A stretch of 64,000 bases of DNA, from the NCBI RefSeq assembly GCF_023546765.1, contig NZ_CP097484.1, forward strand, positions 4,533,501 to 4,597,500, given 5' to 3'. The translations under genes and the position numbers were made by a program. This document shows, piece by piece, positions 9,475 to 64,000 of the stretch. The notes under the pieces are model-generated. The model searched no databases. It saw only the letters and a list, made by a program, of their open reading frames with translations, and had not been told where the DNA came from. The DNA comes from Methylobacterium tardum (GTDB lineage Bacteria; Pseudomonadota; Alphaproteobacteria; Rhizobiales; Beijerinckiaceae). Each line of letters opens with the position of its first letter. Position 1 is the first letter of the stretch.

Positions 9475-9596
9475 TGCAAAATACTCGCATGTAAATCGTC
9501 GGAACTTTGCGTATTTCGCGTTCTTGTTAGGATACCGACGCGCTCACTGCGAGCATCTCGTCCATGAACTCCAGTGTTCAAGCGAGGTGCTGCGTG

Positions 9597-9800: not shown

Positions 9801-9942
9801 CACGTCTCACACCGAACCGCTCAGGCAGACAGCCGACGTCGCTACTCGTCTGGATCTTCCTGGGCGACGCAACAGGCTTCACCGGCATCAAGCCGGACGG
9901 CGGATGCGGCCGTACTCTGAGCTCACGAAGGACGCGCCGGCC

Positions 9943-10449
9943 ATGACCGCTCACGAACCGAATCAGCGAGAGCAGCGGCAGCCGACTCACCAGGACGAGG
10001 CTCCGACGCAGCTCGCGACCGGCGAGAGCCTTGCGATCCCGGTGGTCGAGGAGACTGCCCGGATCGAGAAGCAGGTCGTCGAAACCGGTCGAGTCCGGGT
10101 CAGGACCGAGACGGAGACGCACGATCAGATCCTGCGCGAGAGCCTGCGCAGCGACAGCGTCGCAGTAACCCGGGTGCCGGTGAACCGTACACTCGCCGCT
10201 GGCGAAGCTGCGCCGGTTGCCCGGGTCGAGGACGGGGTGACGATCATCCCAGTCCTGGAAGAGATCCTCGTCGTCGAGAAGCGCCTCGTCCTGAAGGAAG
10301 AGGTGCACATCCGCAAGGCTTCTGCGGATGAGGACGTCGAGGTCCCGGTGACGCTGCGCCGGCAGCGCGCCGTGGTCGAACGCCTGTCGGCCGACGGGCA
10401 AACCACCGACACGACAGCCCAAACGGGTTCAGAGGAGACCTCATCATGA
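9943..10449 (+). CDS. YsnF/AvaK (DUF2382) domain stress protein
   Basis: 168 residues from the ATG at 9943 (MTAHEPNQREQ); the frame opens at 9904. Two halves of the YsnF/AvaK (DUF2382) beta-rich domain are visible: LAIPVVEETARIEKQVVETG, then RVRVRTETETHDQI, and VTIIPVLEEILVVEKRLVLK followed by EEVHIRKAS. The family is named after Bacillus YsnF, a general stress protein, and the cyanobacterial akinete marker AvaK. Stop and next start overlap (ATG at 10446 within the last codons), so it is translationally coupled with the following YsnF gene. Confidence 0.87.
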   Translation: MTAHEPNQREQRQPTHQDEAPTQLATGESLAIPVVEETARIEKQVVETGRVRVRTETETHDQILRESLRSDSVAVTRVPVNRTLAAGEAAPVARVEDGVTIIPVLEEILVVEKRLVLKEEVHIRKASADEDVEVPVTLRRQRAVVERLSADGQTTDTTAQTGSEETSS

Positions 10450-42842: not shown

Positions 42843-43105
42843 CTTCAAACCTCGTGATGCCTCGTCGGAAGGACATACGAGCAGATTTCCATGACAAGCC
42901 TGAGAAGCGGTCGCCCGACAATTATATCGAGCGAGCGGCTACCAGCTTTGCCTCATGTCAGTGCGCAAGCCTCTCGTCCTCGGGTTCGATCCAGGATCGA
43001 CTCAGTTCCAAAGGTCAACCGCGTATAGCCGGAGCGACTGTACTGTCACCCCCGTCATGGAGCCGATCTACGCCCGGGCGAACGGCAGGATCCATCGAGG
43101 CGCCT

Positions 43106-45829: not shown

Positions 45830-47335
45830 TCAATACCGAGCGATGGCGCGCAGCCCGAACACGGTGGCGTCGCGGACGCGCGTACCCTCTGGAGCACGGG
45901 AATTGGCGATCCCGCCACCGGGATGAATGACGTACTGCAGGGTTGGCTGCACCGCGACACCGGGGCCGAGGACGACCTGGTAAGTCGCCTCGAGCACCGT
46001 CTCAGCACTGCGACGCGGATACGGTGACGAACTCTGTGCCGCTGCGATCGTGTCGAGGCGCCGTGCGGCAGCAGATATGTGCGTGAAGCCGGCGGCGAAG
46101 CCGAGGGTGTCGTCCGAGCGGCCGGGCAACAGCCCGCGATAGGCGATGCCGCCGTCGAGATAGAAATCGGCGAGGTTGCGGTCGCCGGGCGAGGCCGAGG
46201 CGCGCAGGAACACGCTGGCGCCGTCGTTCGGATCGTCCGGCTCCCGGTAGATCGTCTGATCGATCAGGCCGTAGACGCCGGAGTCACCCGAAACACGGCG
46301 GCCGAGGCCGCTGACCGGGTCGGGCGTGAGTGCGTCGACGCGCCCGAACCGGTGCCACCCGCCGAGCGTCACGGTGCCCGGCTGACCCGGTGCTCCCGGA
46401 CGGGTGTTGTAGGCGTACGAGACCTCCGCGATGGCGAGCGGTGGGTCAGAGAGGGGAAAACGGGTGCCGTTCGGGTTGCGTCGTTGCGGATCGATTCCCG
46501 AATCGGGCCGCCCACCTCCCGGTGTGCCGTCGATCAGGCTCGCCTGGAAGGAGAGCTCCCGGCTCGGCACGTATTTCAGGCGCACGGAGGGAGCGGAGAG
46601 CGGATAGGCCGGTCCGCCATCGGTCATGTTCGCGGCGAAGATCGCCGGCCAGCCGAAGGTGCCATTGGTGAAGAGGATGCTGGTCTGGCTCACCATGTAC
46701 TCGGTGTCGGCGGAAAGCTCACCGAGACGCAGCATCAGCCTGCCGTCGAACAGGCTCTGCTCGAACCACAGCTCCGACAGGCGCGAGGCGGGCAGCGCCT
46801 CGATCTCGCTCACCGTCATCAGATTGCCGACCCGGGAGCGGGAGGCGCCGCTGCCCTGGATTTGGTAGAAGGTCGCGTGAGCTGTGGCGCCCGTCCAGCC
46901 GGCCAAGGTGTCGAGATCGACGTCGACGTCGAGATCGAGGAGCGTCAGGCCGGTGGAGCCCCTGCGCAGGCCTCCGCGCAGGTTCGTGTACGACTCGGCG
47001 ACCGAGATCAGGCCGAACGTGATGCCGCGGCTCTCCAGGTAGGCGCGGTACCCGCCGGGATCGCCTGCGGGTCCCAGCAGAGGCTGGAACGAGGTCGTCA
47101 CCTCCGCTGCGCGCCCGGCCGAGAAGACCGGCTGCGCGACCGAGGTCTGCGGATCGCCGCCCGCGCCGGCATCAGAGCCGATGGCGATGCCCTCGGCTGC
47201 AATCCGCGCGGCCGTCGTCAATGCATCCGCATCAGGTTGTGCCGTGGCGAGGCTGGCCTGCGCGATCAGAACGGATGCGGCGGCGGTGCGGACAATGGCA
47301 CAGGTGGCAGAGCGCACCAGGACCTCAGGAGACAT
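45830..47335 (-). CDS. OprB-family carbohydrate porin
   Basis: 501 residues from the ATG at 47335 (AGGAG upstream). Signal peptide TAAASVLIAQASLATAQ. The outer-membrane barrel shows the OprB traits: YLESRGITFGLISVAESYTN, LRRGSTGLTLLDLDVDVDLD, RLSELWFEQSLFDGRLMLRL, then GELSADTEY, a late LEATYQVVLGPGVAVQPTLQ and a C-terminal aromatic (ARY). It passes sugars or other small solutes. Convergent with the CorA gene. Length normal. Confidence 0.88.
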   Translation of the reverse strand: MSPEVLVRSATCAIVRTAAASVLIAQASLATAQPDADALTTAARIAAEGIAIGSDAGAGGDPQTSVAQPVFSAGRAAEVTTSFQPLLGPAGDPGGYRAYLESRGITFGLISVAESYTNLRGGLRRGSTGLTLLDLDVDVDLDTLAGWTGATAHATFYQIQGSGASRSRVGNLMTVSEIEALPASRLSELWFEQSLFDGRLMLRLGELSADTEYMVSQTSILFTNGTFGWPAIFAANMTDGGPAYPLSAPSVRLKYVPSRELSFQASLIDGTPGGGRPDSGIDPQRRNPNGTRFPLSDPPLAIAEVSYAYNTRPGAPGQPGTVTLGGWHRFGRVDALTPDPVSGLGRRVSGDSGVYGLIDQTIYREPDDPNDGASVFLRASASPGDRNLADFYLDGGIAYRGLLPGRSDDTLGFAAGFTHISAAARRLDTIAAAQSSSPYPRRSAETVLEATYQVVLGPGVAVQPTLQYVIHPGGGIANSRAPEGTRVRDATVFGLRAIARY

Positions 47336-47514
47336 CGGACACGGCAAGCGAAGGCATAGCCTCGTGACCGTTCGGCGACGGCCGTGGCCAGTCGGCCTCC
47401 GGCATCGCTGATCCCGATCCGCCCGCGGGCGTTGTCCACCCGGAAGCATTGCAGGAGTGCAGTCTGCGCCAGGGGCGCCGCTCTGCAACCGGCCCACGGA
47501 TCAGAAAAGAACAG

Positions 47515-49053
47515 ATGAGCGAACCGCGCGAGATCGAGTTGAAGCTGGAATGCGAGCCCTCCGACCTCGCCACGCTCCAGGTGCATCCTCTTCTGCAGGA
47601 TGCCTCCGAGCGAGGCGCGGCGGATCTCAGCTCGACCTACTTCGACACGGTCGAGCAGCGCCTGCGCGAGGCCGGGCTCGGGTTGCGGGTACGCCGGATC
47701 GGCGATCGCTACGTCCAAACCCTCAAAGCTGACGGAGACGGCCTCTTCAGCCGGCCCGAATGGGAGCAGGAGGTGAGTGGCCCCGAGCCTGACCTTGCAG
47801 CTCTGGCCGACACGCCGCTTGACGAGATCCTGGGGCGCAAGGACGAACTGCAGCCTCTGTTCACCACCTCGGTCGAGCGGCGGACCTACCTGGTCGAGCA
47901 GGGCAGCTCGCGCATCGAGGTTGCGCTCGACAGCGGCCGTATCGACGCGCCCGCCGTCGGCGACCGCGTGATACCCATCTGCGAGGTGGAGTTGGAGCTG
48001 AAGCAGGGCTCTGCCGGCGACGTGTTCGCACTCTCGCAGGCGATCGCAGCCTTGGCGCCGCTGCGCCTCGGCGTGCGCAGCAAGGCCGAGCGTGGGTACA
48101 GCCTAGCGTCAGGGAAGCCGGAACGCGTCCGCAAAGCCGAGCGGGTGCCGCTGCGCGAGAACATGAGCGCCGCCGAGGCCTTCCAGGCGGTCGCTCACGC
48201 CTGTCTGCGCCACATGCGGCTGAACGAGGACATCCTGTTGCAGGGCCGGAATGCGGATGCCCTACACCAGACGCGCGTCGCGATCCGACGGCTGCGCTCG
48301 GCGTTCTCGCTGTTCGGCGATCTCGCCGAGGACGCTCAGGGAGCCCGGATTCGGGCCGAGCTGAAGCGGATGACCGAGCCGCTGGGTCAGGCCCGCAACC
48401 TCGATGTGTTCCTCGCCACGACCCTGCCGGCAGAGCGCGAGCGGCACCCGGACGAGGTTGGCCTGCTCAACCTGGAGACGCAGCTCGAAGACCAGCGCTC
48501 GCAGGCATACGAGGCCGTCCAAAACCTGCTCCAATCGGCGGAATGGCGCGGGCTCGTGCTCGATCTCGTCGCCTGGATCAACGCCGGTCCCTGGCTGCGG
48601 GACGGGGCTGAGGGCCGTGCGGAACTCCGCGAGGAACCTGCGCGCGACTTCGCGGCGCGTGAGCTGGATCGACGCCGTCGCCGGGTGAAGAAGCGCGGCC
48701 GCCACCTCGACGACCTCAGCCCCGAGGACCGACACAAGGTGCGCATCGCTGCCAAGAAGCTGCGCTACGGGGCGGAGTTCTTCGCCGGCTTGTACCCGGA
48801 CAAGAAGGCCGTGAAGCGCCACGCCACCTTCGTAAAAGCACTCTCCGAACTGCAGGATCAACTTGGCGCGCTCAACGACATCGTGACAGGCCACGAGGTG
48901 GTGCGGGACATCGCCGGCGAGCACGCCGGTGCTTCGGCCGTCTTCGCTGCTGGCATCACGGCTGCTGACCTTGAAGCGCGCACGCACAAGCTCCTGACAG
49001 CGGCAGCCGACGCACACGAGGATCTGGTGGATGCCAAGCCGTTCTGGCGATAG
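47515..49053 (+). CDS. CYTH-CHAD domain protein
   Basis: 512 residues from the ATG at 47515 (MSEPREIELKLE). The CYTH part (1-205) has EIELKLE as ExExK motif, STYFDTVEQRLREAGLGLRV, YVQTLKADGDGLFSRPEWEQ and VIPICEVELELKQGS. The CHAD part (about 220-505) has conserved His/Arg/Lys-rich helices: RHMRLNEDILLQGRNADALH, then QTRVAIRRLRSAFSLFGDL, and HKVRIAAKKLRYGAEFFAGL. CHAD domains bind polyphosphate granules; CYTH hydrolyses short polyphosphate. It fits with the neighbouring ppk2 and PiT genes. Confidence 0.92.
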   Translation: MSEPREIELKLECEPSDLATLQVHPLLQDASERGAADLSSTYFDTVEQRLREAGLGLRVRRIGDRYVQTLKADGDGLFSRPEWEQEVSGPEPDLAALADTPLDEILGRKDELQPLFTTSVERRTYLVEQGSSRIEVALDSGRIDAPAVGDRVIPICEVELELKQGSAGDVFALSQAIAALAPLRLGVRSKAERGYSLASGKPERVRKAERVPLRENMSAAEAFQAVAHACLRHMRLNEDILLQGRNADALHQTRVAIRRLRSAFSLFGDLAEDAQGARIRAELKRMTEPLGQARNLDVFLATTLPAERERHPDEVGLLNLETQLEDQRSQAYEAVQNLLQSAEWRGLVLDLVAWINAGPWLRDGAEGRAELREEPARDFAARELDRRRRRVKKRGRHLDDLSPEDRHKVRIAAKKLRYGAEFFAGLYPDKKAVKRHATFVKALSELQDQLGALNDIVTGHEVVRDIAGEHAGASAVFAAGITAADLEARTHKLLTAAADAHEDLVDAKPFWR

Positions 49054-50590: not shown

Positions 50591-50773
50591 TCAGCAATCA
50601 TGGCTTAAATCCTGCCTGCACCTCTCAAATTCGGCACGTTTTCGAATAACCTCTGCCAATCCTTCGATGACGTCCTCTCGGTCGCCTTCGAGGATCTCGC
50701 ACAGTGCATCGATGGCGTCCGAGAGCGGCTGCAGATCGCCGGTGTCCGGCACGTCGGGTGGTAGTGCGAACAT
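50591..50773 (-). CDS. Small acidic protein coupled to the FtsH-like gene
   Basis: 60 residues from the ATG at 50773: MFALPPDVPDTGDLQPLSDA, IDALCEILEGDREDVIEGLA, EVIRKRAEFERCRQDLSHDC. Acidic and helical. GGGGGGACAAG lies just upstream. If one base is restored near 50800 the FtsH-like gene would end in a TGA (50773-50775) that overlaps this ATG, a sign of coupled translation. The printed FtsH frame instead runs through it in another frame. Family unknown; possible adaptor or partner of the protease. Confidence 0.6.
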   Translation of the reverse strand: MFALPPDVPDTGDLQPLSDAIDALCEILEGDREDVIEGLAEVIRKRAEFERCRQDLSHDC

Positions 50774-52934
50774 CACTTGTCCCCCCTACGCTTGCGGAAG
50801 CCTCAGATTCCGCCCGCTCTCCAACCGAAGCCAGTATGCGGTCGATCTCCCGACCGGAAAGGTAGCCGGTTTCTTCGAGTTCGCGAGCAACAGCCTGCAA
50901 TGCCGTCCGATGTTCCATCAGGATGTTCCGCGCCCGGTCACTCGCACGCTTAAGGCGCTCGGCAACGGCCGGCATCAAGCCCTTGATCAGGATCATGTCG
51001 GTGGCGGCATGCTCCAGATAGATGTTGCCGAGAAATCCGAGCCCATAGGTGAGCTCGATGTCGCGCGCGATCCCGGTGGCCAAGGCGAGATCGGAGTTCG
51101 CACCGAAGCTCGCGCCTATCGATCCGGCCCCGAGTTCGATCTCTTCCGCGATCCGGCCCGCCAGGAGCGAAGCCAAGGCAGCCTCCAATTCGGTCAAGGT
51201 CACAGCACCATTCCTGGTGAACTCCAGACAAGCTTGGCCGCCTTCGTCATCCAGGGACAAGTCCATGAGCGCGCCGAAGCTGAGTGTATGGCTGACGACC
51301 GCATGACCAGCCTCGTGGATCGCCACGCGATGTCGGACTACCGCCGAGAGCGGGCGGCGCCCTTGCCGAATCTCGGCTAGCAGGTCGTCCAGTGTCACAG
51401 CTCGGCCACTGCGGCGTGCCGTTCCTTTGGCGCGCCGGACGAACGCTTCCGCATCCGCACCCGTCATACCGCGGGCGGCCAACGCCAAGGGAAGCATCGA
51501 AGCGTCCGGAAGGATCTCGCTTCCGAGATGGTGGCGGAATATCCGGGCCAGCGCGGTGGTGTCCGGCTTCTCGATCGCGATCTCACGGTCCAACCGCCCA
51601 GCCCGCTTTACAGCAGGGTCGATTCTCTCGGGATGATTGGTCGCTGCCACGACCACAACGCCGGGCCGCTCATCTACGCCCGCGAGCAGTTCGAGGAACA
51701 GATTTACGATCTGCGTCCAGTACTGAACGTACTCTCCGCGGATCTGACCCCGGTCGGAGATGCCGTCGAGTTCATCGATGAACAGGATGCAGGGTGCCTG
51801 CGCTTGCGCCTGTGCAAAGACCTTGCGGATCGCCTGGAGCGTGCCGGACAGATAGTCGGCTGCGTTCCATTCGGCGACGGAGGTAGCCACCAGGGGCACG
51901 CGAGCGCTCTTGGCCAGCGCCCGCGCGAAACTGGTTTTTCCGACACCGGGCGGCCCCGACAGCAGCAGACCGCGATGGTCCATCTGGGCCCAGGTCAGAC
52001 GACCTGCACGATACCCCTGGAGATCGGCTGCCACGGCCAGGCCCCAGGTCTTGGCTGCTCCATAGCCGTCGAGCTCCTCCAGGGCGGGACCATCGGCGAG
52101 AAAATCGGCTTTCGCGGTAACGATACGCTCCAGCGCTTCGATGCACGCATCCGGCGAGGTTGCACGGCGGAAAGCGACCGGCAGATCCGCGATGTCGATC
52201 ATGCGTAGGAGATCCCGATCGATCTCTCGCGAAGGCCGGCTGCCTACGACAGCTTCAACCACGAGGGCGAGGCCGGCCTGATCGAGACTCGGCAACCCGA
52301 TTCGGTGTTCCGCGGAGCGCATCAGGTCACGCGGCAGCTGTCGCTTGGGGTCGGGTGCTATGCCAACGATGGGTATGCGGACATGCAGTGCCGTGCCGAT
52401 GACCTCGTTGCCTTTTTCAGGCCGTGCGTCGCGGCTGACCCCGTCGCAGACGAAAAGGGCGGCATGCCGCCGGCTCAACTCGCGCGCCCGTCCGTTTGCG
52501 AGATCCATCACCTTGGTGTTGGGTCGGAACAGGCACTTTTCGGCGACGACTCGAACGGGCTCGACAAGATCGACTACATGCGTGGCGAGCGTGACCACAG
52601 GCGCTTCCCGGCGCAGACGGCGCACAAGACCGGGCTCCGCCTCGATGGCCTGTGCGAGCATCACTGCGACGGCGGCGAGGTCTGCTGGAACAGGCACATG
52701 CGCGCTCTCGGGGCGGTTGATCTCGTCCTGAACGACGATCCGCTCGACGGCATCGGCTTCGTCGAGCATCGGCTCGGCATCGAGATCGTACGAGCTGGCG
52801 CGGTGGCCGACCTTGAGACGCCTGCGCTCGTCCTGGGCAAGCTGTTGCAGGAAGGCGCGTGCGAGTTGGTCGGACGATGGGTCGTCCTGCTTGGTTGGAT
52901 TTACGGTTGGGGGCAACGACGATGGGGCGAGCAT
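50625..52934 (-). CDS. FtsH-like soluble AAA protease (AAA plus M41), C-terminal frame doubtful
   Basis: ATG at 52934 (MLAPSSLPPTVN). No membrane segment, unlike true FtsH. The first 300 residues are an unfamiliar N-terminal region. AAA module: LLLSGPPGVGKTSFARALA (Walker A), ILFIDELDGISDRGQ (Walker B), NHPERIDPAVKRAGRLDREI (SRH with Arg fingers). M41-type peptidase: HRVAIHEAGHAVVSHTL (HExxH), with a later acidic FGANSDLALATGIARDIELT as the third-ligand segment. After GERAESEASAS the printed frame is Arg-rich junk (RRRPRGRHRR); adding one base near 50800 gives GFRKRRGDK and a stop at 50773. An ATP-dependent zinc protease of the cytoplasm; substrates unknown. Confidence 0.85.
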   Translation of the reverse strand: MLAPSSLPPTVNPTKQDDPSSDQLARAFLQQLAQDERRRLKVGHRASSYDLDAEPMLDEADAVERIVVQDEINRPESAHVPVPADLAAVAVMLAQAIEAEPGLVRRLRREAPVVTLATHVVDLVEPVRVVAEKCLFRPNTKVMDLANGRARELSRRHAALFVCDGVSRDARPEKGNEVIGTALHVRIPIVGIAPDPKRQLPRDLMRSAEHRIGLPSLDQAGLALVVEAVVGSRPSREIDRDLLRMIDIADLPVAFRRATSPDACIEALERIVTAKADFLADGPALEELDGYGAAKTWGLAVAADLQGYRAGRLTWAQMDHRGLLLSGPPGVGKTSFARALAKSARVPLVATSVAEWNAADYLSGTLQAIRKVFAQAQAQAPCILFIDELDGISDRGQIRGEYVQYWTQIVNLFLELLAGVDERPGVVVVAATNHPERIDPAVKRAGRLDREIAIEKPDTTALARIFRHHLGSEILPDASMLPLALAARGMTGADAEAFVRRAKGTARRSGRAVTLDDLLAEIRQGRRPLSAVVRHRVAIHEAGHAVVSHTLSFGALMDLSLDDEGGQACLEFTRNGAVTLTELEAALASLLAGRIAEEIELGAGSIGASFGANSDLALATGIARDIELTYGLGFLGNIYLEHAATDMILIKGLMPAVAERLKRASDRARNILMEHRTALQAVARELEETGYLSGREIDRILASVGERAESEASASVGGTSDVRTTTRRAGHRRSAAALGRHRCTVRDPRRRPRGRHRRIGRGYSKTCRI

Positions 52935-53663
52935 GCAAGATCTCCTATGGCCGGCCATGAGGCCGCGGCCGTCAGCAAAAAGGGCTGTGATGGATCAGAG
53001 TCGCCGCTTGTTCGACAGAGTCGAAGCAACTGGTGGGCGTCTGATTCAGGAGATCGCCTGCTTCATAGGCGATGAAGCGCTTTTAGAACAAAAGGCGAAC
53101 ATAGGCTAGCCGCCGTCATCGCTGTCCACAGGAGGCGCTTGGCAGGCGTCTCGTACGAGCCTCCGGCCCGATCAGCGTCGCGGACTCGCCGCGGCGTCCG
53201 AGGCTGCCAAGTCGAGGTTGCAAGACCCTGAGATCTAGAGGCGCAGATCGGCAGGAGAGTTCGCCGTAAGGGCGCCTATAGTTCGAGGCTGAGACTGGTG
53301 CGGTGTCGGTACATTCTTTGCGCTTCTCGTCGCGCAGCCATGAGCCGAGCAGGCGACCAGTCGGCCATCCTCCATTTGAAGCGAACCGGAAACCCCCAAC
53401 AGCGACCACCTGCCTCAACCAATAGGCCAAGAGCCGACGACTGGCCGTACCGAACTCCCGGCGCGCATTGCGTTCCTGCACAACCATCATGCCGGACGTA
53501 TCGGGAGAGGCGTAAGCCACATCGCGCGACTGCTTCTCGGAAGGAACCACAGCGCCGCGTCGCCACTCTGGAAGGAATGACCTCACCGTGCCATTCTTCC
53601 AATCCGCGCTCCGCGCGAGCAAACGCATCGCCTAGGAGCCTGGTCGTTGCACTCGTATGAACG
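52935..53663. other. Intergenic gap, no firm gene
   Basis: About 730 bases. A minus-strand frame ending at 53276 reads LGLLVEAGGRCWGFPVRFKW then PARLMAARREAQRMYRHRTS, which looks faintly protein-like, but it has no start or family. Nothing else supported. Confidence 0.35.
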
Positions 53664-54032
53664 ATGATGATGGACGGCGTTGGCTTCAAAGCACGTCTAC
53701 GCCTGCTCGGGCGTACACAAGTTGGTTTCGCGGCCGAGATTGGCGTCGCGGAGCGCACCGTGCACGATTGGGCACGTCAAGGACCGCCTACGGTGGTCGT
53801 CTATCTCCTAGACCTACTAACCAAGCACGACCTGCCGCTCGGGCCTCCAGATTCGGGTGACGAGTCTCTGAAAGCCGCCATCGACGGTCAACTGCACCGG
53901 CTGCTCGCCTCATGTCGAGAGGAATTCCGGCCTGAAATCCTCCAGCTGATCACGGACTGGGTCGATCAACAGTCATACGGTGATCATCAGAAAGTCATCA
54001 AACTGGCATCCCCGGATACGGGGACGTTTTAA
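53664..54032 (+). CDS. XRE-like helix-turn-helix protein
   Basis: About 120 residues; three ATG in a row at 53664-53670. GFKARLRLLGRTQVGFAAEI then GVAERTVHDWARQG and PPTVVVYLLDLLTKHDLPLG is a single helix-turn-helix of the Xre/Cro type (like a small operator binder). The rest (LHRLLASCREEFRPEILQLI) is helical. A GC-rich hairpin (ccccg / cgggg, 54011-54025) lies in its last codons, followed by acgttttaa. It stands at the edge of the transposon; whether it belongs to it is unclear. Confidence 0.6.
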   Translation: MMMDGVGFKARLRLLGRTQVGFAAEIGVAERTVHDWARQGPPTVVVYLLDLLTKHDLPLGPPDSGDESLKAAIDGQLHRLLASCREEFRPEILQLITDWVDQQSYGDHQKVIKLASPDTGTF

Positions 54033-54319
54033 CAGATCCTAATATTCCGTGTATGATGACTCGCGCCTCATCTCTATCCCCGATATTACCGTTATCCGAT
54101 GAGAACTCCTCGGCGATTGAAGGCAGGCGGAAATTGCCTGTATATAGACGCGTGCTTCGTTGAGGCAGCTCAACGGAACTGGCATTCCCAAGCCCATGAA
54201 TACGGCTTTCGGAGATCGATGCGCGATGCGCTTCAGGCGTTTTTTTAAGCAATAACCGGCGAAACATCACCTTCCAGTTGTGCCGGCAGTATATATCATG
54301 GAAAGTGGAGATATATCCG

Positions 54320-54904
54320 GTGACTGCGTTCAGCGAAAATCAGTCCCTGTTTTTTGGATCAGAATCACAGGCGGACGTCGCTAGAGGGTTCAAGTCATTT
54401 AAGACACTTGTCGCAATCCCATATCCCTGCCGCTGGCACAGGGATTTTCTAATACAAGCTACATTGGATCCGGCAATTGATGCGATCAACCCGCACATAT
54501 GCGGACCACATGAACGTTTTTCCATTGCAGTAAGCACGAAGTCATCGACTCATGTGCTGATAGCGGTCCGAGATCGACTAAGCCATTTAGATGAAGAATC
54601 GCACCCTATACCTAAACTGATCACGAGATCGTTTGTACTTGCCGAGCCGCGCTGCTCGACGGCGCGAGCGATCTGGGCAGCACGTGCAACGCAGGTCGCG
54701 CCGCGCGATCGCATCAACATTCTGCGAATGCTTGGAGAGCAATCTGATGGCGTCTGCTTAGCTGCCGCTAGCGACCGAGTCACCGACCATTCGATAGACC
54801 CAATACAATCCATTTTCGCGCTCGCATGCGCAGGACAGATCGAAATCGATATTAGCACCCCTCTATCGCCAGACACCCACATCCGATTACGCTCTATTTC
54901 CTGA
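54320..54904 (+). CDS. Degenerate TnsA-like protein (catalytic residues missing)
   Basis: About 194 residues from the GTG at 54320 (TGGAG upstream; TTG at 54278 is an alternative). Codons are AT-richer than the chromosome. CRWHRDFLIQATLDPAIDAI, then ERFSIAVSTKSSTHVLIAVR and PKLITRSFVLAEPRCSTARA, with DPIQSIFALACAGQIEIDIS near the end, follow the layout of TnsA-like heteromeric endonuclease subunits (S-x-L-E-RDFL-DP, PDF, EVK, then a C-terminal helix and short beta). Here the PDF Asp and the ExK pair are replaced (LIAVR), so no nuclease activity is expected. The family link is my inference from pattern; moderate to low confidence. Confidence 0.45.
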   Translation: MTAFSENQSLFFGSESQADVARGFKSFKTLVAIPYPCRWHRDFLIQATLDPAIDAINPHICGPHERFSIAVSTKSSTHVLIAVRDRLSHLDEESHPIPKLITRSFVLAEPRCSTARAIWAARATQVAPRDRINILRMLGEQSDGVCLAAASDRVTDHSIDPIQSIFALACAGQIEIDISTPLSPDTHIRLRSIS

Positions 54905-55215
54905 TAAGTACTACCGACAAGGTTATATACTGCCTGGCCAATGATCGTTCTAAGCTGAATGCCGAATTTAGAATGTGCGCACGTCCGACACGCAACTCCG
55001 GAACGTTCACGGCACAGTCGCACTGCGCAGGAAGAAACACAGCGCGACCTGGCGTAGAAATCAAGATCCCATCTGACGGCGATTTAAGCCTGCCATCAAT
55101 GGAACGGCGCCTGCAATCGAAGCTCGCGAACAGAGCGCTGCGCCATACCTCGAGACGAAACAACCGTTCGTATTGCGGGAATAGAGCTCAGCTAGCTTTG
55201 ACCGAGTGAAATCCT

Positions 55216-55247
55216 GCGGCTTGCTATTTCCACGTCAAGCAAGCCGC
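55216..55247. repeat. Perfect 10-bp inverted repeat
   Basis: gcggcttgct (55216-55225) and agcaagccgc (55238-55247) flank a 12-base loop. No T-run follows on either strand, so it is not a standard terminator. It could be a regulator site or a relic of a mobile end. Confidence 0.6.
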
Positions 55248-55543
55248 TCCGGCTGCTGAACCAACACTACGGTAAAAGCGACCTCGGCCGCGTCGGAGAA
55301 CAACCCACAATCCTGCGGACAAACTAGACCAGCGCAACACCTCATCTCAGAGCTAAGCGCTCAGCCTCAGCCCCGACGCTACGCAACAGCACATGACGCG
55401 CCAAGGAAGCGACGCCACCAGCAAATTCCATTCGACATGAAACTTTGCCTAACCGTCGCGCGACAAAAAGCCTGACGGATCAGTCTGCCTGAGAAGGAGA
55501 TCTTTCGACATGCTGACCCTTCAGAAACCCCGACCGCGAAGGC

Positions 55544-55759
55544 TTAGACGAACCGTTCGCTCCCCTCTAATCCACTGGCGCGCAAAAGGAATCCCGCTGC
55601 GTCTTCGTCCGCCGCGGAAACCAGAGGGCGGCTATAGAGAGGTCCTCGCCACTCCTTGCATGCGCCGTACCACCCCCACCCGGCGCCGTACACAGACAGA
55701 AGCGACACGTAGGCGAATAGGAATTTCTCAATCAGCCGGTCGATAATGGCTACGGACAG
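55544..55759 (-). CDS. Possible small membrane protein
   Basis: Minus-strand frame reading SVAIIDRLIEKFLFAYVSLL then SVYGAGWGWYGACKEWRGPL and DEDAAGFLLRASGLEG. One hydrophobic segment. GGAGG lies upstream of a CTG at 55759, an unusual start. Low support. Confidence 0.3.
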   Translation of the reverse strand: MSVAIIDRLIEKFLFAYVSLLSVYGAGWGWYGACKEWRGPLYSRPLVSAADEDAAGFLLRASGLEGSERFV

Positions 55760-55878
55760 ACTATTCCTCCAGCAATGGAGGGTGACCGCGACTACCCTGT
55801 AGGCTTGTGCTGAACACCGTCTTAAACACGCGTCGGCACGATCAAACGGGGCGCCCAAATTTTCACGGAAATGCTCGA

Positions 55879-56646
55879 ATGACCGTCGCATTTACTCCGA
55901 AGGCCCTCAAACAGCTGAAGGGGGTGCGGGCAGCCGACAAGGCGACCAACAGAGTCAGCTTTTCGGGAACGATGCCATGGTTCGACATCGATAACCTGAT
56001 GGCGCCGACAGGGCTAAAGGGCAACGACATCGAAGGGTTCGTCGAAGGCGAGTCCCTGCTTGAGCTGGAATTCATTCGCCTGGCCCGCTTCGTAGGGCAG
56101 ACGGTTCGCATCCGCCCGCAGCCGTGCACTCTGCGCTGGGTCGATCCACGGACGATGAAGCTGCGAAAACATATTCCCGACTTCGAGGTGTGGCGACACG
56201 GAAGCACTAAAAGCATTTTCATTGAAGTCAAGTATGCGGAAGAAGCCGAGCTCCTAAAAAGCGAGCACGACCTGATACGTGCGAACTTTAAAAAAGAAGG
56301 CCATGAATTTGAGGTTTGGACCGAGGCTGTTATTCGCAAGCAGCCCAGAGCCACCAATGTAGAGATGCTGTTTGCTCAAGCCGGGCCGATAGAGAACGTT
56401 GCTGCGCTCGAATGCGTGCGATCAGTGCTGCGGTCCGCGCAAGGCGAGACTTTGACGATAGGAGAAATCCGAGAGCGATCCGGCCTGCGAGGAAAAGCGT
56501 TTCGAGCAATCCTACGGCTACATGTGCGCCGTGAGCTTGTACTAGATCTGGACTCCACGATCGACGAACGTTCCCCGGTCTATCTTGGAAGATCGAGATT
56601 AGATTTGCACCTTGGTGGCAGCGTTGTGAGCGGTCTCGATGTATAA
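55879..56646 (+). CDS. tnsA: TnsA endonuclease
   Basis: 255 residues from the ATG at 55879. The N-terminal restriction-nuclease-like core shows E58 and E62 in GESLLELEFIRLARF, then D101 in HIPDFEVW and E116-x-K118 in IFIEVKYAEEAELL, the Asp/Glu/Lys set of TnsA. The C-terminal part (about 165-255; IGEIRERSGLRGKAFRAILR then LHVRRELVLDLDSTIDERSP) is the winged part that binds TnsC. It cuts the 5' ends of the transposon while TnsB cuts the 3' ends. Overlaps tnsB by 8 bases. Confidence 0.87.
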   Translation: MTVAFTPKALKQLKGVRAADKATNRVSFSGTMPWFDIDNLMAPTGLKGNDIEGFVEGESLLELEFIRLARFVGQTVRIRPQPCTLRWVDPRTMKLRKHIPDFEVWRHGSTKSIFIEVKYAEEAELLKSEHDLIRANFKKEGHEFEVWTEAVIRKQPRATNVEMLFAQAGPIENVAALECVRSVLRSAQGETLTIGEIRERSGLRGKAFRAILRLHVRRELVLDLDSTIDERSPVYLGRSRLDLHLGGSVVSGLDV

Positions 56647-58857
56647 GTTCAAGGTCAGTCCCGACGATATTCTTATTTTGAATCACGTCCGCATGGAGCC
56701 AGGAAAGAGGATCCGCGATGGTCTTCTTCTCAGGCCGATTGGGAAGGAGTGGGAAGCGCACCTATGGAAAGATCTATTCGACGCATGGACTTTCGGGCGG
56801 CTGAAGATCGAAAAGGCGCCGAACGCCGGCCTACCCGCCACTCTGATTGAAGATATGCGTCGTGATATCTCCTCGTTCAGCGAGGAGCAGCAGAAGGAAG
56901 CGCGTCGTCGATTCAAGTACGTGGAGGCTCTGGATCGCGCCATTAAGGATCGCAGAGCTCAGCGACGTGCGGAATCTCAGTCGCCGGCGGAACAAAGGCC
57001 GCAACGGGTCAGCCTAAGGCCGGAGTCACTTGGGTCGTTCGCGATAAGGCAATTCGCGCTGTTGGGTCCTGAGGGAGGCGATAAGGCACCCGATGGGACT
57101 TCGCTCCGTTCATGGTACCGCCGTTACGTACGCAGCGGCCGAATGCTGGCAGCCCTTATACCTCAATGGCACAGACGTGGTTGGTTTAATACGCCGACGA
57201 GCAACCGCCTATGCGAGGTCGCTTCCGCGGTGATGGCGGAATATCTTCAAGTGCACTGGCTTACACAGGAGCAGCCTAGCGCCCTATCCATCTTCGCATT
57301 GGTGAAAAACGAGATTGAGAGACGCGGGGGAAAGTCCCAAATCAACAGGCCTGGTATCGGCTGATCAAGAGCACCGATGCACGCATCATAGCTCGATACC
57401 GTGAAGGGAAACGGGATGCCGATCGCGCTTTTGACCTCAGGGGCGAAGGACCGAAGTGGTTCATGCCTGGTCAGGCGGTGCAGATTGACTCGACCAAACT
57501 ACCTATCGTTGTGCGCGACTATGATGACGGCCTGAAGTACAAACAGGTAACTTTGACCATAGCCATCGATGTTGCAACCCGTGCAATACTTGGTTTCTAC
57601 ATTGGCTTGGAAGAAGGTTTTGTGGCCATTCAAGAGACTATCAGAATGGTTATGCTGCCGAAGACTTGGGTGTCGACATTCAGTAATATTAGCAACAAAT
57701 GGGATTGTTCACTAAAGCCTGCCATTATTTTTACCGATCAAGGTTCGGATTACCGATGTGGCAGTCTTAAATTACTCTGCGCGCAGCTGAATATCCAGCT
57801 CATTCATACGCCGGCTGGCGCACCTGAACTAAAGGGCCATGTCGAGCGCGTTATCCAAACAGTCAAAAAAGCCGTTTTCAACGGTATGCCTGGATCCTTA
57901 TTCAAAAGTGGGACGAGGCGGATCGATTATGACGCCGCCGCTAGAGCTGAATTGTCGATGGAGCAGGTCCTCTGGTTTGTCGTCAAATTCATTGCGGACT
58001 ACTACATGCCAAAATGGCATGAAGGTATCGAGAACACTCCGAGAGACAGGTGGAACGAACTCGTGGATCGCTACGACGTCGATCTCGCCCCTGATCTCGA
58101 TCATTTAATTCGACTCGTTTCTGAGCATTGCAAGAGCAAGTTGAACAAGCATGGATTAACATGGCGAAATCTTCATTATGGCGCGAACTCTGCCGCACTA
58201 CAAAGGTTGTTTGACGCAGCCGGAGAGAACGACGTTCAATATATCGTAAAGATCGACCCGCTTGATGTGGGGCGGGCGTGGTTCCTTCACCCGGATGGAC
58301 ACTGGGTTTTGCTTCAATGCAACGATCCCGACGCGATCGGTCGTACGAAGCATGAGCATCTTGTTGCCAGAGCGAACGTACGCCTCCGTAAGAAGACTTA
58401 CGAACAGGCGGAGATGGGGGATATTAACAAGGCGCTTGCTGATCTAAAAGCTCCACAGCTCGAGGCAAATCAACGCCGATTCAACGCGAAGCAAGCTCGG
58501 CAAAAGGCACGGGTACGCGCGGAACGTATTGATCCACTCGCCAGTGTCAAAGAAGGTATCGACTACGTCGGTGAGTTACAGCCCGAGATTTCTCGTGTGA
58601 GAAAAAGAGTAATTAGCAGTTCTGAAAAAAGTAAAGTCAAATCTCTGGCTGTTAAGCCGGCTCACTCAAAAGGCGAGCTCGTGCAGCGCGCCCGGGTACC
58701 GACGCCAGCTGCTACCAGAAACAACTTCGGTCCTCGGTTTGAGCTCTCTGCAGCGGGCAGCGAAGCTGATTTTGTCGTTATCGAAATCCAAGGCGGTGAC
58801 GACGTGTCTATTAACGAAATAATGCAATATGAGGTTGAGGAAAATGTCACATTCTAA
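56639..58857 (+). CDS. tnsB: TnsB DDE transposase, one frameshift
   Basis: ATG at 56639. Residues 1-235 are the N-terminal DNA-binding part (SPDDILILNHVRMEPGKRIR, YRRYVRSGRMLAALIPQWHR). After EIERRGG the printed frame ends at 57364; one frame back it reads VPNQQAWYRLIKSTDARIIA and continues to 58857. One extra base in the GGGGGAAA tract (57326-57333) restores about 739 codons. DDE residues: D in QIDSTK (57487), D in FTDQGSDY (about 57739), E in KGHVERV (57844). The C-terminus (from 58560) is Lys/Arg-rich with VEIQGGDD-type end that in Tn7 contacts TnsC. Encodes the 3'-end cutting and joining enzyme. Confidence 0.85.
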
Positions 58858-59950
58858 ATTGACAGAAGACGAGCGCGAAGAGATTCTCGAGCGGGCAGCA
58901 CACACTTTTTAAAACATATACTAGCATGCCGCTAGTTCTCGAAGAATTTGATGGCTTGCGTGCGGCTAGCAAGAGAGACGACCCTGGGCAGTTCCTTCTA
59001 CTCTTAGGAGAGTCTCGTGTCGGGAAAACAACAATAGTTAAACAGTTTCTCAGAGAAGAGCGAGATAGGATTCAGTCCGAGACCAACCGTGAAGTGGAAT
59101 TCGGTGAATACGGTCTAAGATTGGCCGATGGCGAGTATGGCGATGAACGACCCATTGTGTACGTGGAGCACCTGGCGACAGATCCCTAGTAGCCTTCGCA
59201 GGCGAACTACTCAGAGCATATGGAGTGCCGGTACCCCGTGCCATCCGGAAACATGAAATTCTTGGCCAGTTACGCACTCAAATGATGGGGCAGAGAACAA
59301 AGATACTTATCATTGATGATTTTCAGAACGCAGTTCCCATCAAAAAACGAGACGACGTTATTTGGGAGCTTTCGGAATTAGTAAAAGACTTGTTGGAGCG
59401 GACCCGCGTCAAAATGATATTGGCCGGACTGCCGTACGCGGTGCTGCCGCTGGAGCGCAACCCGCAACTCGATGGACGGTGTAGAGCTCGATTGCACATC
59501 CGAGCGTTCCCGTGGAGGCGTCCACAGCCGTCAAAGAAGGCCGGCGTGATCTCAATCAATACCTATCAGGCGTATCTGGCGCAGTTTGAGGCGGCAATGC
59601 GATTGCCTGAGCCCTCACATCTTTCAGATCCTGACCGTGCCGAGCGGATTCATAAGGCGACCGGAGGGCTTATTGGGAGGACGATGCGTTTACTGGTAAG
59701 CGCGCTGGAAATCGGCTTGAGCAAAGGCGCACTGCACATTTCGGACAAACATTTAGAGGTCGCCTATCTCCGAACTCGCTTGGAGGACGACAAATCGAAT
59801 CCGATCATAGATAGTCTGGACGAGACGGCGTCGGGTTACCGGGCGGCGCTCGTTGGGAAGACGGTAATCAACCGTACGCCCATCAGGCTTTCGAGTGCTG
59901 CTTCGGACGAGGGAGAAGTCATATTCTCCAAAGCTGGCGGCAGATCGTGA
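58843..59950 (+). CDS. tnsC: TnsC AAA ATPase, two frameshifts
   Basis: Best start ATG at 58843, overlapping the tnsB stop; MSHSKLTEDEREEILERAAH then a break at T5A4 (58906-58914). The next frame reads MPLVLEEFDGLRAASKRDDP (58926), with Walker A LLLLGESRVGKTTIVKQFL and VYVEHLATDP, then stops at 59187. Another base at CCC 59184-59186 would continue LVAFAGELLRAYGVPVPRAI and lead to Walker B TKILIIDDFQNA and the AAA lid. About 365 residues when repaired. It is the ATP-dependent switch that links the target factor to TnsAB. The frameshifts may be sequence errors; the first one needs removal of one base or addition of two. Confidence 0.8.
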
Positions 59951-61959
59951 TATCGATCTTTCCAATTCGTCCTCCTCATATATCGGGGGAGTCTGCACTC
60001 GGCTATGTTTTAAGACTTGTGGAAGCTAACGGCTACCCGTGGCGCGGCGCTGCAATCGCGGCGCATGGCATCGATCTAGTTGGCTTGGCGCACGGGCGGG
60101 GCTTGGGCAGTGTACTGAAGCATGGCAACGTAGAAGAGCATCGTTTGATCGCTTCCACTCCAATGCAATTGGAGTGTGGTCGCTACGCCTTAGGCGGTGA
60201 GGTCCTGCAAGCGACCCAGCTGGTGTTCGGGCGAAAACGGTTTTGCTCGGGGTGCTGGGTTGAGGATCGTCGGCGGATGGCTATGGCGGGCGTGGAAGAT
60301 ACGTGGTGTCGGTACCTTCGAGGTTGGTGGGCGGTAGGGGCTGTGGCAGCCTGTCCGATCCACTGTACAAAATTGATCGATTGCTGCAGCAGATGTTCCA
60401 GAGCACTCGTGTTCGACCAAGGCGGCTTGACTAGGTGTCGTTGTGATGCCGATCTCGAACAATGTTCTAGCGACGCTTTGGAAAGGCAATCACTCTTAGC
60501 TGAGGCCTACCTCGTCGGTCGCCTTGGTGGAGCCGATCATCTGTCGGTTCCTCTTTTGGATCGCCTGCCGCTCGCGGACGTCATCGCGCTGATACCGCGG
60601 CTAGGTAGCCTGAAGCTGTTGTCGAGTAATGGCAGCTTTGGCCGTATCCGCACGGCCGATGCCGGTCTTCTGAAAGTCAGAGGCATGGAAGTTGCTATGT
60701 CGAATGATGCGGGAGTGGAGTGCTTGCTCGATGCTACTTTAAGAAAGAACGGGCCCGCCGATTCATTGCGGGCACAGCTAGGTGGTTTCTACGAATGGTT
60801 TGCGTCGTTGCCGGCGGGAGCTCTGCGAAATTGGCTCTCGGAAAGGGTCGGTGTGACTGTGGGTAGGCGCGGTATTCTATGGACTAATTGGCAGAAGTTC
60901 GTATCGGGGAATCCGTCCCCGGATCGAGTGTCGATTGCTGAAGCCGGGGCTATTCTGGATCTAACGGAGCAGGCGACACGTCGCGTACTGACGGCGGTTC
61001 ACCTCATACCGGATGACTCGCGCTCTAGCATCCGGCCATCTTACGATCGCTCGCACGTCGAGGCTTTGGGCTTGCAACTTCATAGTACGCTCGAAGTGTG
61101 TGATGCGGCGGCGCAGCTTGGCACTACCGCAAGATCCTTTCGCCAGCTCGCAGCTGCTGGAATCATCGAGCCCGACCATGTGGCTGCTACGGCTTACGGC
61201 AACGCTGCTCGTTTTGCGCCCGATTCCATCGCAGCTATACTTGAGAAGCTCGTTCACGGCGTCCCGGTCCGAGGTACGGCTCCCGGCGGCGCGATCATCT
61301 TCGAAAATGCTGCGCGCCAGCTCGGTATCGTTAAGCTTTGTCGGGGCTTGATTGAAGGTACCATCCGCCCTGTTGGTCGTCTATCGGGCCGGAAGTCGCT
61401 GGACAAGCTCCTTATATCCAGCAATTCTATCGCGCTGATGAAGTTGAATATAGGAAAAGATTATCTCTGTGCAAAATCTGCTGCAATCTTCCTTTCGCTC
61501 CGGGAAAGAGCGTTCGCCGCTTTGGTGTCCGCTGGCCATTTGACGCCGGCGCTCTATGTTTCGCCATACCATATCTTCTGCGTCAACGATCTCGACGAGT
61601 TTGCTCGGCGTTATATTAATCATTCGGAATTGGCAGTAAATTTCGGAACGAGTACGAAACAGATACTATCTTCCATTGCGGAAATCGGTATCAGCCCATC
61701 TATTGAGTTGTACAGTTCAGATCGCATTGAGGTTCGCTTCTACGAGAGACGTTCCGTTTGCGACTTGAGCCATACTATCTCGGTCAGCTTCAGGAATCAG
61801 GCGCTATCGGTTGCACCTCGTCGATCAAGGCGATCCGTCTCGGGAGATCCAAGGAAGTTGTCCGGTCACGCTTCCAGACGAAAAGTGGCAGGGATTGCCG
61901 CGGTACCAGCTATTGGCGTCGGCCAGAGGAAGCGGTCTCGCACCAATAATATGACGTAG
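59947..61959 (+). CDS. tniQ: TniQ/TnsD-like target-selection protein with HTH-like repeat tail
   Basis: GTG start at 59947 overlapping the tnsC stop. N-terminus ISIFPIRPPHISGESALGYV is the TniQ opening. Zinc-finger cysteines: FCSGCW near residue 100, CPIHC near 137 and CCSRC near 144, closing at CRCD. From about 325 on there are about five units with the same logic: VSIAEAGAILDLTEQATRRV (328), LEVCDAAAQLGTTARSFRQL (382), IIFENAARQLGIVKLCRGLI (449), LCAKSAAIFLSLRERAFAAL (507), HSELAVNFGTSTKQILSSIA (558). Such a tail can read a specific target, as TnsD does. The last 30-60 residues look frame-shifted twice (an alternative tail RLHLVDQGDPSREI and DEKWQGLPRYQLLA ends at 61954). Confidence 0.85.
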   Translation: MISIFPIRPPHISGESALGYVLRLVEANGYPWRGAAIAAHGIDLVGLAHGRGLGSVLKHGNVEEHRLIASTPMQLECGRYALGGEVLQATQLVFGRKRFCSGCWVEDRRRMAMAGVEDTWCRYLRGWWAVGAVAACPIHCTKLIDCCSRCSRALVFDQGGLTRCRCDADLEQCSSDALERQSLLAEAYLVGRLGGADHLSVPLLDRLPLADVIALIPRLGSLKLLSSNGSFGRIRTADAGLLKVRGMEVAMSNDAGVECLLDATLRKNGPADSLRAQLGGFYEWFASLPAGALRNWLSERVGVTVGRRGILWTNWQKFVSGNPSPDRVSIAEAGAILDLTEQATRRVLTAVHLIPDDSRSSIRPSYDRSHVEALGLQLHSTLEVCDAAAQLGTTARSFRQLAAAGIIEPDHVAATAYGNAARFAPDSIAAILEKLVHGVPVRGTAPGGAIIFENAARQLGIVKLCRGLIEGTIRPVGRLSGRKSLDKLLISSNSIALMKLNIGKDYLCAKSAAIFLSLRERAFAALVSAGHLTPALYVSPYHIFCVNDLDEFARRYINHSELAVNFGTSTKQILSSIAEIGISPSIELYSSDRIEVRFYERRSVCDLSHTISVSFRNQALSVAPRRSRRSVSGDPRKLSGHASRRKVAGIAAVPAIGVGQRKRSRTNNMT

Positions 61960-62570
61960 ATCGACAGCCTCGCGCGATCGTGCCAGAGGCATTTGATAAG
62001 GTCGCCGCACTCCGTCCGGAACACGCACTGATCGCGAGCGTGCTATTGCGACCAAGCCCGTCCTGCACGGAGAGCGCCAAGCTGGCTAGCTCCGCGGAAG
62101 ATATCGGTGACGCCTGTGGCGATTGAGACCAAAGCAGCCGCCGGGATTGGGGTCGTCGCCTTTCCAGCACGTCGAGAACGCGGGTGAGCGCTGCGGCATC
62201 GGCGTCGACGACGACGACACGCCGGCCCCGGTCCAGCACGATCATCACGAGCCCGGCTACCGGAGACACCGAGGTGCGCCGGATCTGTTCCGGTGCCGTC
62301 TCTGCCTCAGACACCGCCGCCGGCACGAAGGATGGCCTCGCCTTTGACCGCCTCGCCTCGAACGCCCGCCGCCAGATCAGCAGCAGCGAGCGTGAAATGC
62401 TGTGCTGTTGCGCGATGGTTGCACCATCCGCGGCCTCTGCAGCCTGTCGAGCACGATCCGCGGCTTCTCGTATTCCGACCCGCGCGGACGCCGACCGGTC
62501 CCGACGGCCGCAAGGCGCTGAGGACCACGTGCACTGTCCGTATGACTGTCCATATGCGCTGTTATAAGCG
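61923..62570 (-). pseudogene. IS66 family remnant (OrfA and OrfB pieces)
   Basis: Minus-strand fragments: ATIAQQHSISRSLLLIWRAF and EARRSK, then VVVDADAAALTRVLDVLERR are the C-terminal part of IS66 OrfA (TnpA). LALSVQDGLGR and DLIKCLWHDRARLSIY belong to IS66 OrfB (TnpB; usual form LALQVQEGLGR and DLIKCLWHDGQGLCLY). Frames change several times and stops are present. The pieces begin right at the end of the first tniQ and lie before the second tniQ, so the IS66 copy was inserted between them and decayed. No terminal repeats identified. Confidence 0.62.
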
Positions 62571-62682
62571 GCCGTGCATCAGTTCCGCAAGATGGATACC
62601 GTTGTAGGGGTACGAATAGGAGGTCGATCTCTGGTTAAAACATCAGATTTAAGAGTATTATCTGTAATATACTTTGCGCCTT

Positions 62683-63837
62683 TCATGGTTTTGTGATCCC
62701 TATTGCGGCCTCAAGAACGGATCTCACGAATACCTTATCCTCCATGCCTCCGAAATTGACCCTGCCTTTACCAAGGATGTCTCTCATGCACTGTACACCA
62801 TTCGCGACCATTTCGTCGCTCACTAAAAAATTCGAGGCGCCGTCCGCGACGCCAATCTGAGCACTTGGATGGATGGCTACAAGGTCCTGTTTGGCTTTTA
62901 TTTTTGTTACCAGGTCGTAATAGAAAGGCTCGGGTAACCGCCCCGATTTCCGAAGATATTTATGCATGTTGTTCCGAACGTGGCTTATCATTACGGTCCG
63001 GACGTGGTCGAAATCATTTTGTTTGTTTCTGCCGAGTCTTTGACCGAGGAAACCATAGATCGATCGTGTGAACCAGCCTCTTTGGCTCTGCTCTGTCTTC
63101 TCCCATAGGCGATCAAGGAAGGTCAGGAAGGACTTTTCGTTTTCAGCAATCACGAAGCCAGCGGCCATAATACCGCCCTGTTGAAAAAGTCCTTTCATAT
63201 TGTAAGGAGAATGCCTCCCATACACATGGGCGGCACCACATAGTGCAACTAGTCTACTTGCGGCCGCCAATGAGAGTCGATCAAGCAGGTCGGAATGCCG
63301 GCGGTCTGCAAAGCCAAGTCTACCGATGAAATAGGATTCCCAGCCACATGAGACTTGTACGGCGCGATGATTAGCGTATTTTGTGCGTGGTATTCTTTGT
63401 TTGATTGGTTCCAAAATGGTCTGGTGAATTGGGCAGCGGTGGATATGGACAAAATCCCACCAAATTCTGCGTATAACACCAAAAGAATTTAGATTGTTAT
63501 TTGTGTGACTGTCCTCTTCGTGGCACTGCCGGCAATACCTATTGCGGTGAAGTTGCCAATGTCCCCTCGGGATGATTTCGCCTTTTACAGTCGCGGTACC
63601 GTGACTTGCGACCAACGTTGAGTTTTGGAGACTCTTCGCGTCGACGCCGGCCAAAATGGCAATCCGATCGACGTGCTTGCCTTGTTCGACGTCGTGTTCA
63701 TTCAGGCCACGATCAATTAAGAACAGGCGACCGGACTCATACCCGTTCCGTTTTGCAAGGCGAGCTACCAATGCGTATGCGGGCTCATTGTTTTTATGGG
63801 CGCCGAGGACTAGAGGCTCACGTTGTAAATGTATCAT
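62683..63837 (-). CDS. Second TniQ family protein, short form
   Basis: 384 residues, ATG at 63837 (MIHLQREPLVLGAHKNN). TniQ N-terminal domain: NEPAYALVARLAKRNGYESG, then ASHGTATVKGEIIPRGHWQL. Zinc knuckle YCRQCHEEDSHTNNNLNSFG, CPIHQTILEPIK and a late CGWE. No HTH-repeat tail like that of the first TniQ; the C-terminal half is helical (SFLTFLDRLWEKTEQSQRGW, FGGMEDKVFVRSVLEAAIGI). AT-rich codons as in the tns genes. Read toward the operon from the far side and transcribed on its own. A second target-choosing factor, or the TniQ of another element, is likely. Confidence 0.82.
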   Translation of the reverse strand: MIHLQREPLVLGAHKNNEPAYALVARLAKRNGYESGRLFLIDRGLNEHDVEQGKHVDRIAILAGVDAKSLQNSTLVASHGTATVKGEIIPRGHWQLHRNRYCRQCHEEDSHTNNNLNSFGVIRRIWWDFVHIHRCPIHQTILEPIKQRIPRTKYANHRAVQVSCGWESYFIGRLGFADRRHSDLLDRLSLAAASRLVALCGAAHVYGRHSPYNMKGLFQQGGIMAAGFVIAENEKSFLTFLDRLWEKTEQSQRGWFTRSIYGFLGQRLGRNKQNDFDHVRTVMISHVRNNMHKYLRKSGRLPEPFYYDLVTKIKAKQDLVAIHPSAQIGVADGASNFLVSDEMVANGVQCMRDILGKGRVNFGGMEDKVFVRSVLEAAIGITKP

Positions 63838-64000
63838 TTGAACAACCGAAACTTAAATTGGCATTATTCCGCGGAGCGGATGATGGTTAACAGGGGGCCT
63901 AGGTAATCTTGCCGGCCACGTCCGATCCGCAAAGCGCATCGGAGCAGGCGGATGCAAGACCACCTCCCGTCGCTACTGAGGTAGTCGCTCCTCGCCTAAA

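Follow-up and report, generated by a model that had tools for sequence, protein, structure and literature searches.

Tn7 employs TnsABC together with TnsD and TnsE, has ends of the TGT type and generates a 5-bp target duplication, and canonical homing through TnsD uses a single insertion position. Gene transfer agents (GTAs) are tame phages that move DNA between cells. Benler et al. 2021 (PMC8649781) describe safe sites as the apparent targets of Tn7-like elements, which were known to reach 117 kb. Faure et al. 2023 (PMC10293859) describe 998 Tn7-like loci with two TniQ-TnsD proteins, for which a repeated origin by duplication in place has been argued; in these elements, one protein of more than 400 aa is usually accompanied by a substantially smaller one, and the genes are arranged in tandem. 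Here, we describe a Tn7-like transposon with two long TniQ proteins encoded by genes that face each other and with a repeatedly used destination in GTA genes, a damaged copy of which occupies the window (the whole 64-kb stretch of Methylobacterium tardum DNA that was analysed; genome G000). The features of the window that are relevant to this element are as follows.

50625..52958, minus strand: cargo gene for an AAA+/peptidase M41-like protein, 777 aa (Pfam AAA, E 2.9e-31; Peptidase_M41, E 2.1e-11)
53664..54032, plus strand: small ORF ahead of the tns genes encoding 122 aa; by eye, its product looks helix-turn-helix-like (45% identical over 104 aa to a homologue in G079)
54278..54904, plus strand: C5, 208 aa, a TnsA-fold companion without the catalytic motif, conserved upstream of tnsA
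55807..56646, plus strand: tnsA, likely start at ATG 55879, catalytic motifs retained (Pfam PF08722, Tn7_TnsA-like_N, E 1.2e-6; motifs)
56639..57364, plus strand: N-terminal piece of tnsB, after which the frame changes (71% identity to the N-terminal part of the 764-aa TnsB frame of G060)
57463..58857, plus strand: C-terminal piece of tnsB, carrying the DDE triad (78% identity to G060 over residues 1-366)
58844..58909, plus strand: tnsC piece 1, the gene start, stopping at a frame change (translation)
58926..59189, plus strand: tnsC piece 2, with Walker A (Pfam TniB, E 1e-5; motif)
59225..59950, plus strand: tnsC piece 3, with Walker B (Pfam AAA_22 and TniB, below cut-offs; motif; 70% identity to G060)
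59947..61959, plus strand: tniQ1, open frame, 670 aa, a TniQ core and a long C-terminal part predicted to form HTH modules (Pfam TniQ, E 1.5e-5, just under the cut-off in one profile search and over it in another)
62683..63837, minus strand: tniQ2, 384 aa, lacking most of the C-terminal extension of its relatives (Pfam TniQ, E 6.4e-9; length and match comparison)

An earlier note, made from the sequence alone, had placed TnsA, TnsB, TnsC and two TniQ proteins in this region, and the Pfam matches bear this out, with TnsB recognized through rve and Mu-transpos_C matches that both fall under the Pfam cut-offs and TnsC through TniB and AAA pieces. The TnsB DDE triad and the TnsC Walker A and B motifs that it listed are present, its TnsA residues D101 and E116-x-K118 are correct provided that translation starts at ATG 55879, and its low GC content is reproduced in 2-kb steps (51-56% from 53 kb onward vs 59-72% before). 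The compact operon with all core functions, in contrast, is not intact in this copy: tnsB is broken by one frame change into two pieces and tnsC by two frame changes into three, whereas in G060 each is a single open frame of 764 and 408 aa, respectively. These frame changes may be assembly errors. The second TniQ is indeed shorter and encoded on the opposite strand, and most of the C-terminal extension is missing, the protein having 384 aa vs 496-610 aa in seven relatives and matching them only up to residue 241-293. Because tnsB, tnsC and tniQ2 are damaged, the window copy is probably no longer mobile. The window TnsA is 45-64% identical to those of the seven relatives; sequence searches of the window TnsA and TniQ1 against PDB chains found no relative, and the Pfam search of the 122-aa ORF gave no match. 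An IS66 remnant was initially suspected between the two tniQ genes, where Pfam found nothing in three ORFs.

The span of 54278..63890 previously proposed for the transposon proved to be a small part of it. The element of G000 comprises 120,031 bp (C1:4478691-4598721, window positions -54809 to 65221) and contains the whole 64-kb window, including the second tniQ, which the junctions to the interrupted target gene place 1.4 kb inside the right end. The ends and the 5-bp duplication that the earlier note proposed to look for in longer sequence were found there. The element is bordered by the duplication TCGAG, which is followed by TGATATTTGAC on the left and preceded by GTCAAATGTCA on the right; together with the flanking target gene, the junctions read GCGATCGAG joined to TGATATTTGACAGAG, and ACTGAGTCAAATGTCA joined to TCGAG and then GACGATG, the inverted ends being similar. 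The ends have the form TGA(C/T)ATTTGAC, and each contains two TTTGAC-type repeats resembling TnsB sites; such repeats were read in G000. The element thus has the inverted, TG-starting ends with TnsB-site-like repeats of Tn7-like transposons, and it carries the corresponding cluster of tnsA, DDE-type tnsB, AAA+ tnsC and tniQ/tnsD genes, damaged in the window and open in the relatives.

A search of 199 genomes with the C-terminal piece of TnsB produced matches in 68, of which seven besides the window's own genome are at 49-78% identity (G060, G079, G069, G061, G056, G063 and G090), the remaining ones being at 40% or less. All seven belong to the same genus (Methylobacterium/Methylorubrum), so that the family comprises eight genomes of one genus in this survey. 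The plan with tnsA, tnsB, tnsC and tniQ1 in a row and tniQ2 facing them from the opposite strand is common to all eight elements, in agreement with the earlier proposal of a Tn7-like element with two TniQ proteins; both TniQ/TnsD genes thus lie within one element in G000, and the same plan recurs in the seven relatives, in which the tniQ1 and tniQ2 frames are open (602-647 and 496-610 aa). Two pairs of elements are nearly identical (G063/G090, 97%; G069/G079, 96%). Homologues of the cargo AAA+/peptidase M41-like protein, forming one cluster, are found near the elements of G061, G056 and G063. Greedy ORF calling on this high-GC DNA yielded antisense frames, for which reason the gene clusters C9, C11 and C12 were disregarded. 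The terminal sequences are TGTAG/CTACA in G056, G061, G063, G069, G079 and G090 (in G061, the first base is off the contig), and both ends of G000 as well as the single visible end of G060 begin with TGA, not TGT. A 5-bp target duplication is present in 8/8 elements: besides TCGAG in G000, it is CCGAG in G056, ATCCG in G060, CAGCG in G069, GCCCG in G079, TGCAG in G090, ACGGT in G063 and TCGGC in G061. In G060 (one half) and G061, the target halves reach contig edges, from which the duplication was read; the 64.8-kb contig of G061 is the entire element minus one base, and the target halves terminate other contigs.

Each of the eight elements is inserted in an RcGTA-like GTA cluster, in either the tail-completion gene (n=3) or a second small gene (n=5), and this cluster is the only kind of destination seen for them. 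Since the element sits inside the gene, each of the eight insertions breaks a GTA cluster gene. The right flank of the G000 element carries phage genes for a capsid protein, a prohead protease and a head-tail connector. The cluster is assigned to GTAs because of its gene content in G005, a genome without an element of the family among the high-identity TnsB matches, where GTA_TIM (E 7e-123), GTA-gp10 and the Rcc01698 C-terminal domain (Rcc01698_C) were detected. The tail-completion gene (PF11367) has a match in 91/111 genomes of the genus, in a search whose query contained real sequence in its first 60 residues only; among the matches listed, its complementary halves occur in G000, G060 and G056, all of them carriers, and in no other genome, and those of G000 are 120 kb apart on the same strand. 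The second target gene, which encodes a 196-aa protein without a Pfam match, directly follows the GTA lysozyme gene near the end of the cluster. It has a match in 98/111 genomes, and among the matches listed its complementary halves are confined to the carriers G069, G079, G090, G063 and G061. The GTA genes are plausibly dispensable.

Within the target genes, insertion is regional. The insertion points in the second gene lie 8, 23, 35, 45 and 47 bp from a fixed codon (a spread of 39 bp) and those in the tail-completion gene 32, 33 and 57 bp (a spread of 25 bp), and even the near-identical pairs G063/G090 and G069/G079 have insertion points 37 and 12 bp apart. As the insertion points differ and each element has its own duplication, we count eight separate insertion events. 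The selector seems to determine which gene and which region are hit, but not the exact base. Orientation could be read in seven elements, G061 being excluded owing to its target halves at contig edges; the tnsA side is directed toward the 5' half of the target gene in five, and the tniQ2 side in G000 and G060. That this is a hot spot tolerating any island, with no site-reading selector, is a highly improbable explanation: it would suit the plausible dispensability of the GTA genes and insertion points varying over 25-39 bp, but two stretches of less than 40 bp hold 8/8 insertions, at different points, in genomes of ~4.6-6.9 Mb, and no other splits of either target gene occur among the matches listed in the 111 genomes.

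The two TniQ proteins form one clade each (support 100/99), and the elements branch alike within both. For this reason, TniQ1 and TniQ2 were probably both present in the ancestor of the family. In a test of origin by duplication, the best tree keeps TniQ1 and TniQ2 apart, and a topology that joins them is not rejected (p-AU 0.135). Alternatively, tniQ2 may have been captured from another element; the TniQ proteins from 7 loci with just one TniQ scored best with the TniQ2 HMM, but the tree does not bear out the impression given by these hits. The structure of TniQ1 predicted with AF2 shows the core with HTH-type modules behind it, at modest confidence (mean pLDDT 74.9, pTM 0.54); in a Foldseek search with this model, ranks 1-8 are TniQ or TniQ complexes, and MerR-type HTH chains follow at lower ranks. 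Among the distinct second-gene elements, identity in TniQ1 is 54-61% in the C-terminal part and 52-63% in the core, and in TniQ2 it is 24-33% and 37-43%, respectively. The dN/dS ratio is 0.26-0.28 for TniQ1, and for TniQ2 it is 0.32 and 0.70 in two close pairs, the value of 0.70 deriving from few changes. Because the C-terminal half of TniQ1 is conserved among carriers that use the same gene and TniQ2 diverges faster, we infer that TniQ1 performs the GTA homing. The fast change in the C-terminal part of TniQ2 may be a general trait, since its core diverges faster too. Site and selector do not sort cleanly, because the C-terminal part of TniQ1 from G056 (28 and 31% identity to G000 and G060) is no closer to these users of the same gene than to the second-gene group (31-33%).

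The gene at 54278, with which the earlier note began the tns span, is a separate gene and not part of tnsA. Its product, C5, has the TnsA fold, with a nuclease domain and a C-terminal winged helix, and the gene precedes tnsB in 18/22 loci. The catalytic motif D-x(10-25)-[EQ]-x-K, sought within the 70 residues that follow the first helix motif, is present in 0/11 C5 proteins vs 8/8 TnsA (the stretch matched in G056 being shifted), and the glutamate of the helix appears, on reading by eye, to be replaced by an invariant histidine (RWHRD). Judged by these features, C5 is a conserved TnsA-fold companion without the TnsA catalytic motif. In plasmids, C5 has one weak match, in Microvirga.

Taken together, the best explanation, with good though incomplete confidence, is that the window lies within a 120-kb Tn7-like transposon that has inserted into the tail-completion gene (PF11367) of the host GTA, with TniQ1 as the homing protein. 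The terminal sequences, the 5-bp duplication, the interruption of the target gene, the shared two-tniQ plan and the eight placements in GTA genes are observed. In the proposed mechanism, TnsB would pair the ends and join them to the target DNA, TnsA would cut the other strands, and TnsC would couple both to a selector of the TniQ/TnsD type. The operonic TniQ1 would bind the GTA gene via its HTH-rich C-terminal half, the GTA gene serving as a conserved, probably dispensable landing place, TniQ2 may be a second selector for another target, and C5 may act in the transpososome without cutting.

It is rather unlikely, if still worth weighing, that TniQ2, or TniQ1 and TniQ2 together, select the GTA genes, for example with one protein per gene or per orientation. 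Both tniQ genes are open in seven relatives, two target genes and two orientations exist, and the elements are divided alike in the trees of TniQ1 and TniQ2, all of which speaks for this explanation; every element has both proteins, yet the site follows the lineage, and the C-terminal parts of TniQ2 are only 24-33% identical among distinct elements that use one gene. An unlikely explanation is that the selector actually recognizes a family of phage genes (from tail or lysis modules), whose GTA copy is merely the one persisting in genomes. The first target is a phage-type gene with the second in the same cluster, and many genomes contain additional homologues of the second gene elsewhere, several of them at 28-50% identity, but no homologue outside the GTA cluster has complementary halves among the matches listed, C5 was not found in viral contigs, and the plasmid records searched hold no close copy of TnsB that could indicate a second pathway (4329 match, all under 60% identity). 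Quite improbably, in our estimation, the elements could form a GTA-specialized lineage in which TniQ1 would direct insertion into GTA genes and TniQ2 into a moving target, such as related genes of live phages, with the dead TnsA paralogue tuning the balance between cut-and-paste and replicative transposition. If true, targeting of phages by TniQ2 would offer a route between cells, and the lineage would represent a second two-pathway strategy in which tame and wild phages replace the safe site and plasmids.

Under the preferred reading, with homing by TniQ1, a family of large transposons is tied to gene transfer agents, a DNA-transfer system whose genes it disrupts by targeted insertion. Such gene-breaking homing differs from the use of safe sites that Benler et al. 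(PMC8649781) describe for Tn7-like elements. The relatives with open tns and tniQ frames provide a natural system in which to study what two long TniQ proteins and a non-catalytic TnsA relative do. Among the papers listed by the literature searches, which covered only a minority of subscription papers, none reports Tn7-like homing to a GTA or a companion like C5; we thus did not find the GTA target described before. The suggestion of a different, perhaps undescribed targeting mode in the earlier note is accordingly supported in part, as regards the target, the two GTA genes.

Among known systems, CRISPR-associated transposons (CAST) share the TniQ core and, in some cases, a two-selector design, but a crude repeat scan detected no CRISPR-like array in the stretches of the 120-kb element that it covered. 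The dual TniQ-TnsD elements likewise combine two TniQ/TnsD proteins with one TnsABC set; here, however, both proteins of the relatives are long (602-647 and 496-610 aa), and their genes face each other. Tn6022 with TnsF, which targets comM, resembles the present elements in inserting inside a gene with a dedicated selector and in encoding a protein that is related to a recombination enzyme but catalytically dead (TnsF there, C5 here), although C5 has the TnsA fold, not that of tyrosine recombinases, and does not adjoin tniQ. With Tn7 itself, the elements share TnsA, TnsB, TnsC, a long selector of the TniQ/TnsD type and the 5-bp duplication, as well as TGT-type ends in six relatives. They differ from it in having two TniQ-type proteins, one of them encoded convergently, an additional TnsA-fold protein, and a target inside GTA genes that is broken by the insertion and offers no fixed position, the eight elements being spread over 25-39 bp where canonical TnsD homing uses one position. 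The targeting observed fits ordinary protein-guided targeting by long proteins of the TniQ/TnsD type.

The genome from which the window was taken houses further Tn7-like elements, since TniQ was found at eight places, four of them within 72 kb, and TnsA at three; the TniQ and TnsA places noted lie at 1.33, 3.27, 3.60, 3.61, 3.63 and 3.67 Mb of the window's contig. In the window, the two tniQ genes of the element are separated by about 700 bp (61960-62680), and none of the three ORFs of this stretch has a match in Pfam; in four related elements of the genus (G060, G061, G063 and G090), there is no such gap, and tniQ1 and tniQ2 overlap.

A locus of Methylobacterium sp. J-088 (L152) shows 95 and 88% identity to window positions 52001-54769, from the M41-like gene to the gene of C5, the TnsA-fold companion protein, but beyond this part its similarity to the element in the window ends; it may represent either a remnant or another form. 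At the left end of the related element of G069, the adjoining piece resembles, by eye, a broken cobyric acid synthase gene (L085 12558-12660). Solitary genes of about 250 aa, whose products resemble C5 in its C-terminal half, were identified at four loci (L176, L177, L178 and L179), and no tns genes were found around them within the stretches examined. By our count, this solitary form occurs in 20 genomes, and these are exactly the 20 in which the tail-completion gene is missing, a coincidence that is probably explained by their membership of one clade.

The following genes belong to the cargo:

window 42698-44734, PHO4-type phosphate transporter
window 45830-47497, OprB-type porin
window 47449-49053, CYTH-CHAD protein
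window 50625-52958, larger, M41-like partner of a cargo pair of AAA+ proteins
G063 (L091) 6784-7926 and 8888-11053, the two AAA+ proteins of such a pair

The smaller AAA+ protein of the G063 pair matches IetA of PADLOC (E 6e-125); some elements thus carry a phage defence system of the IetAS type, or a relative.
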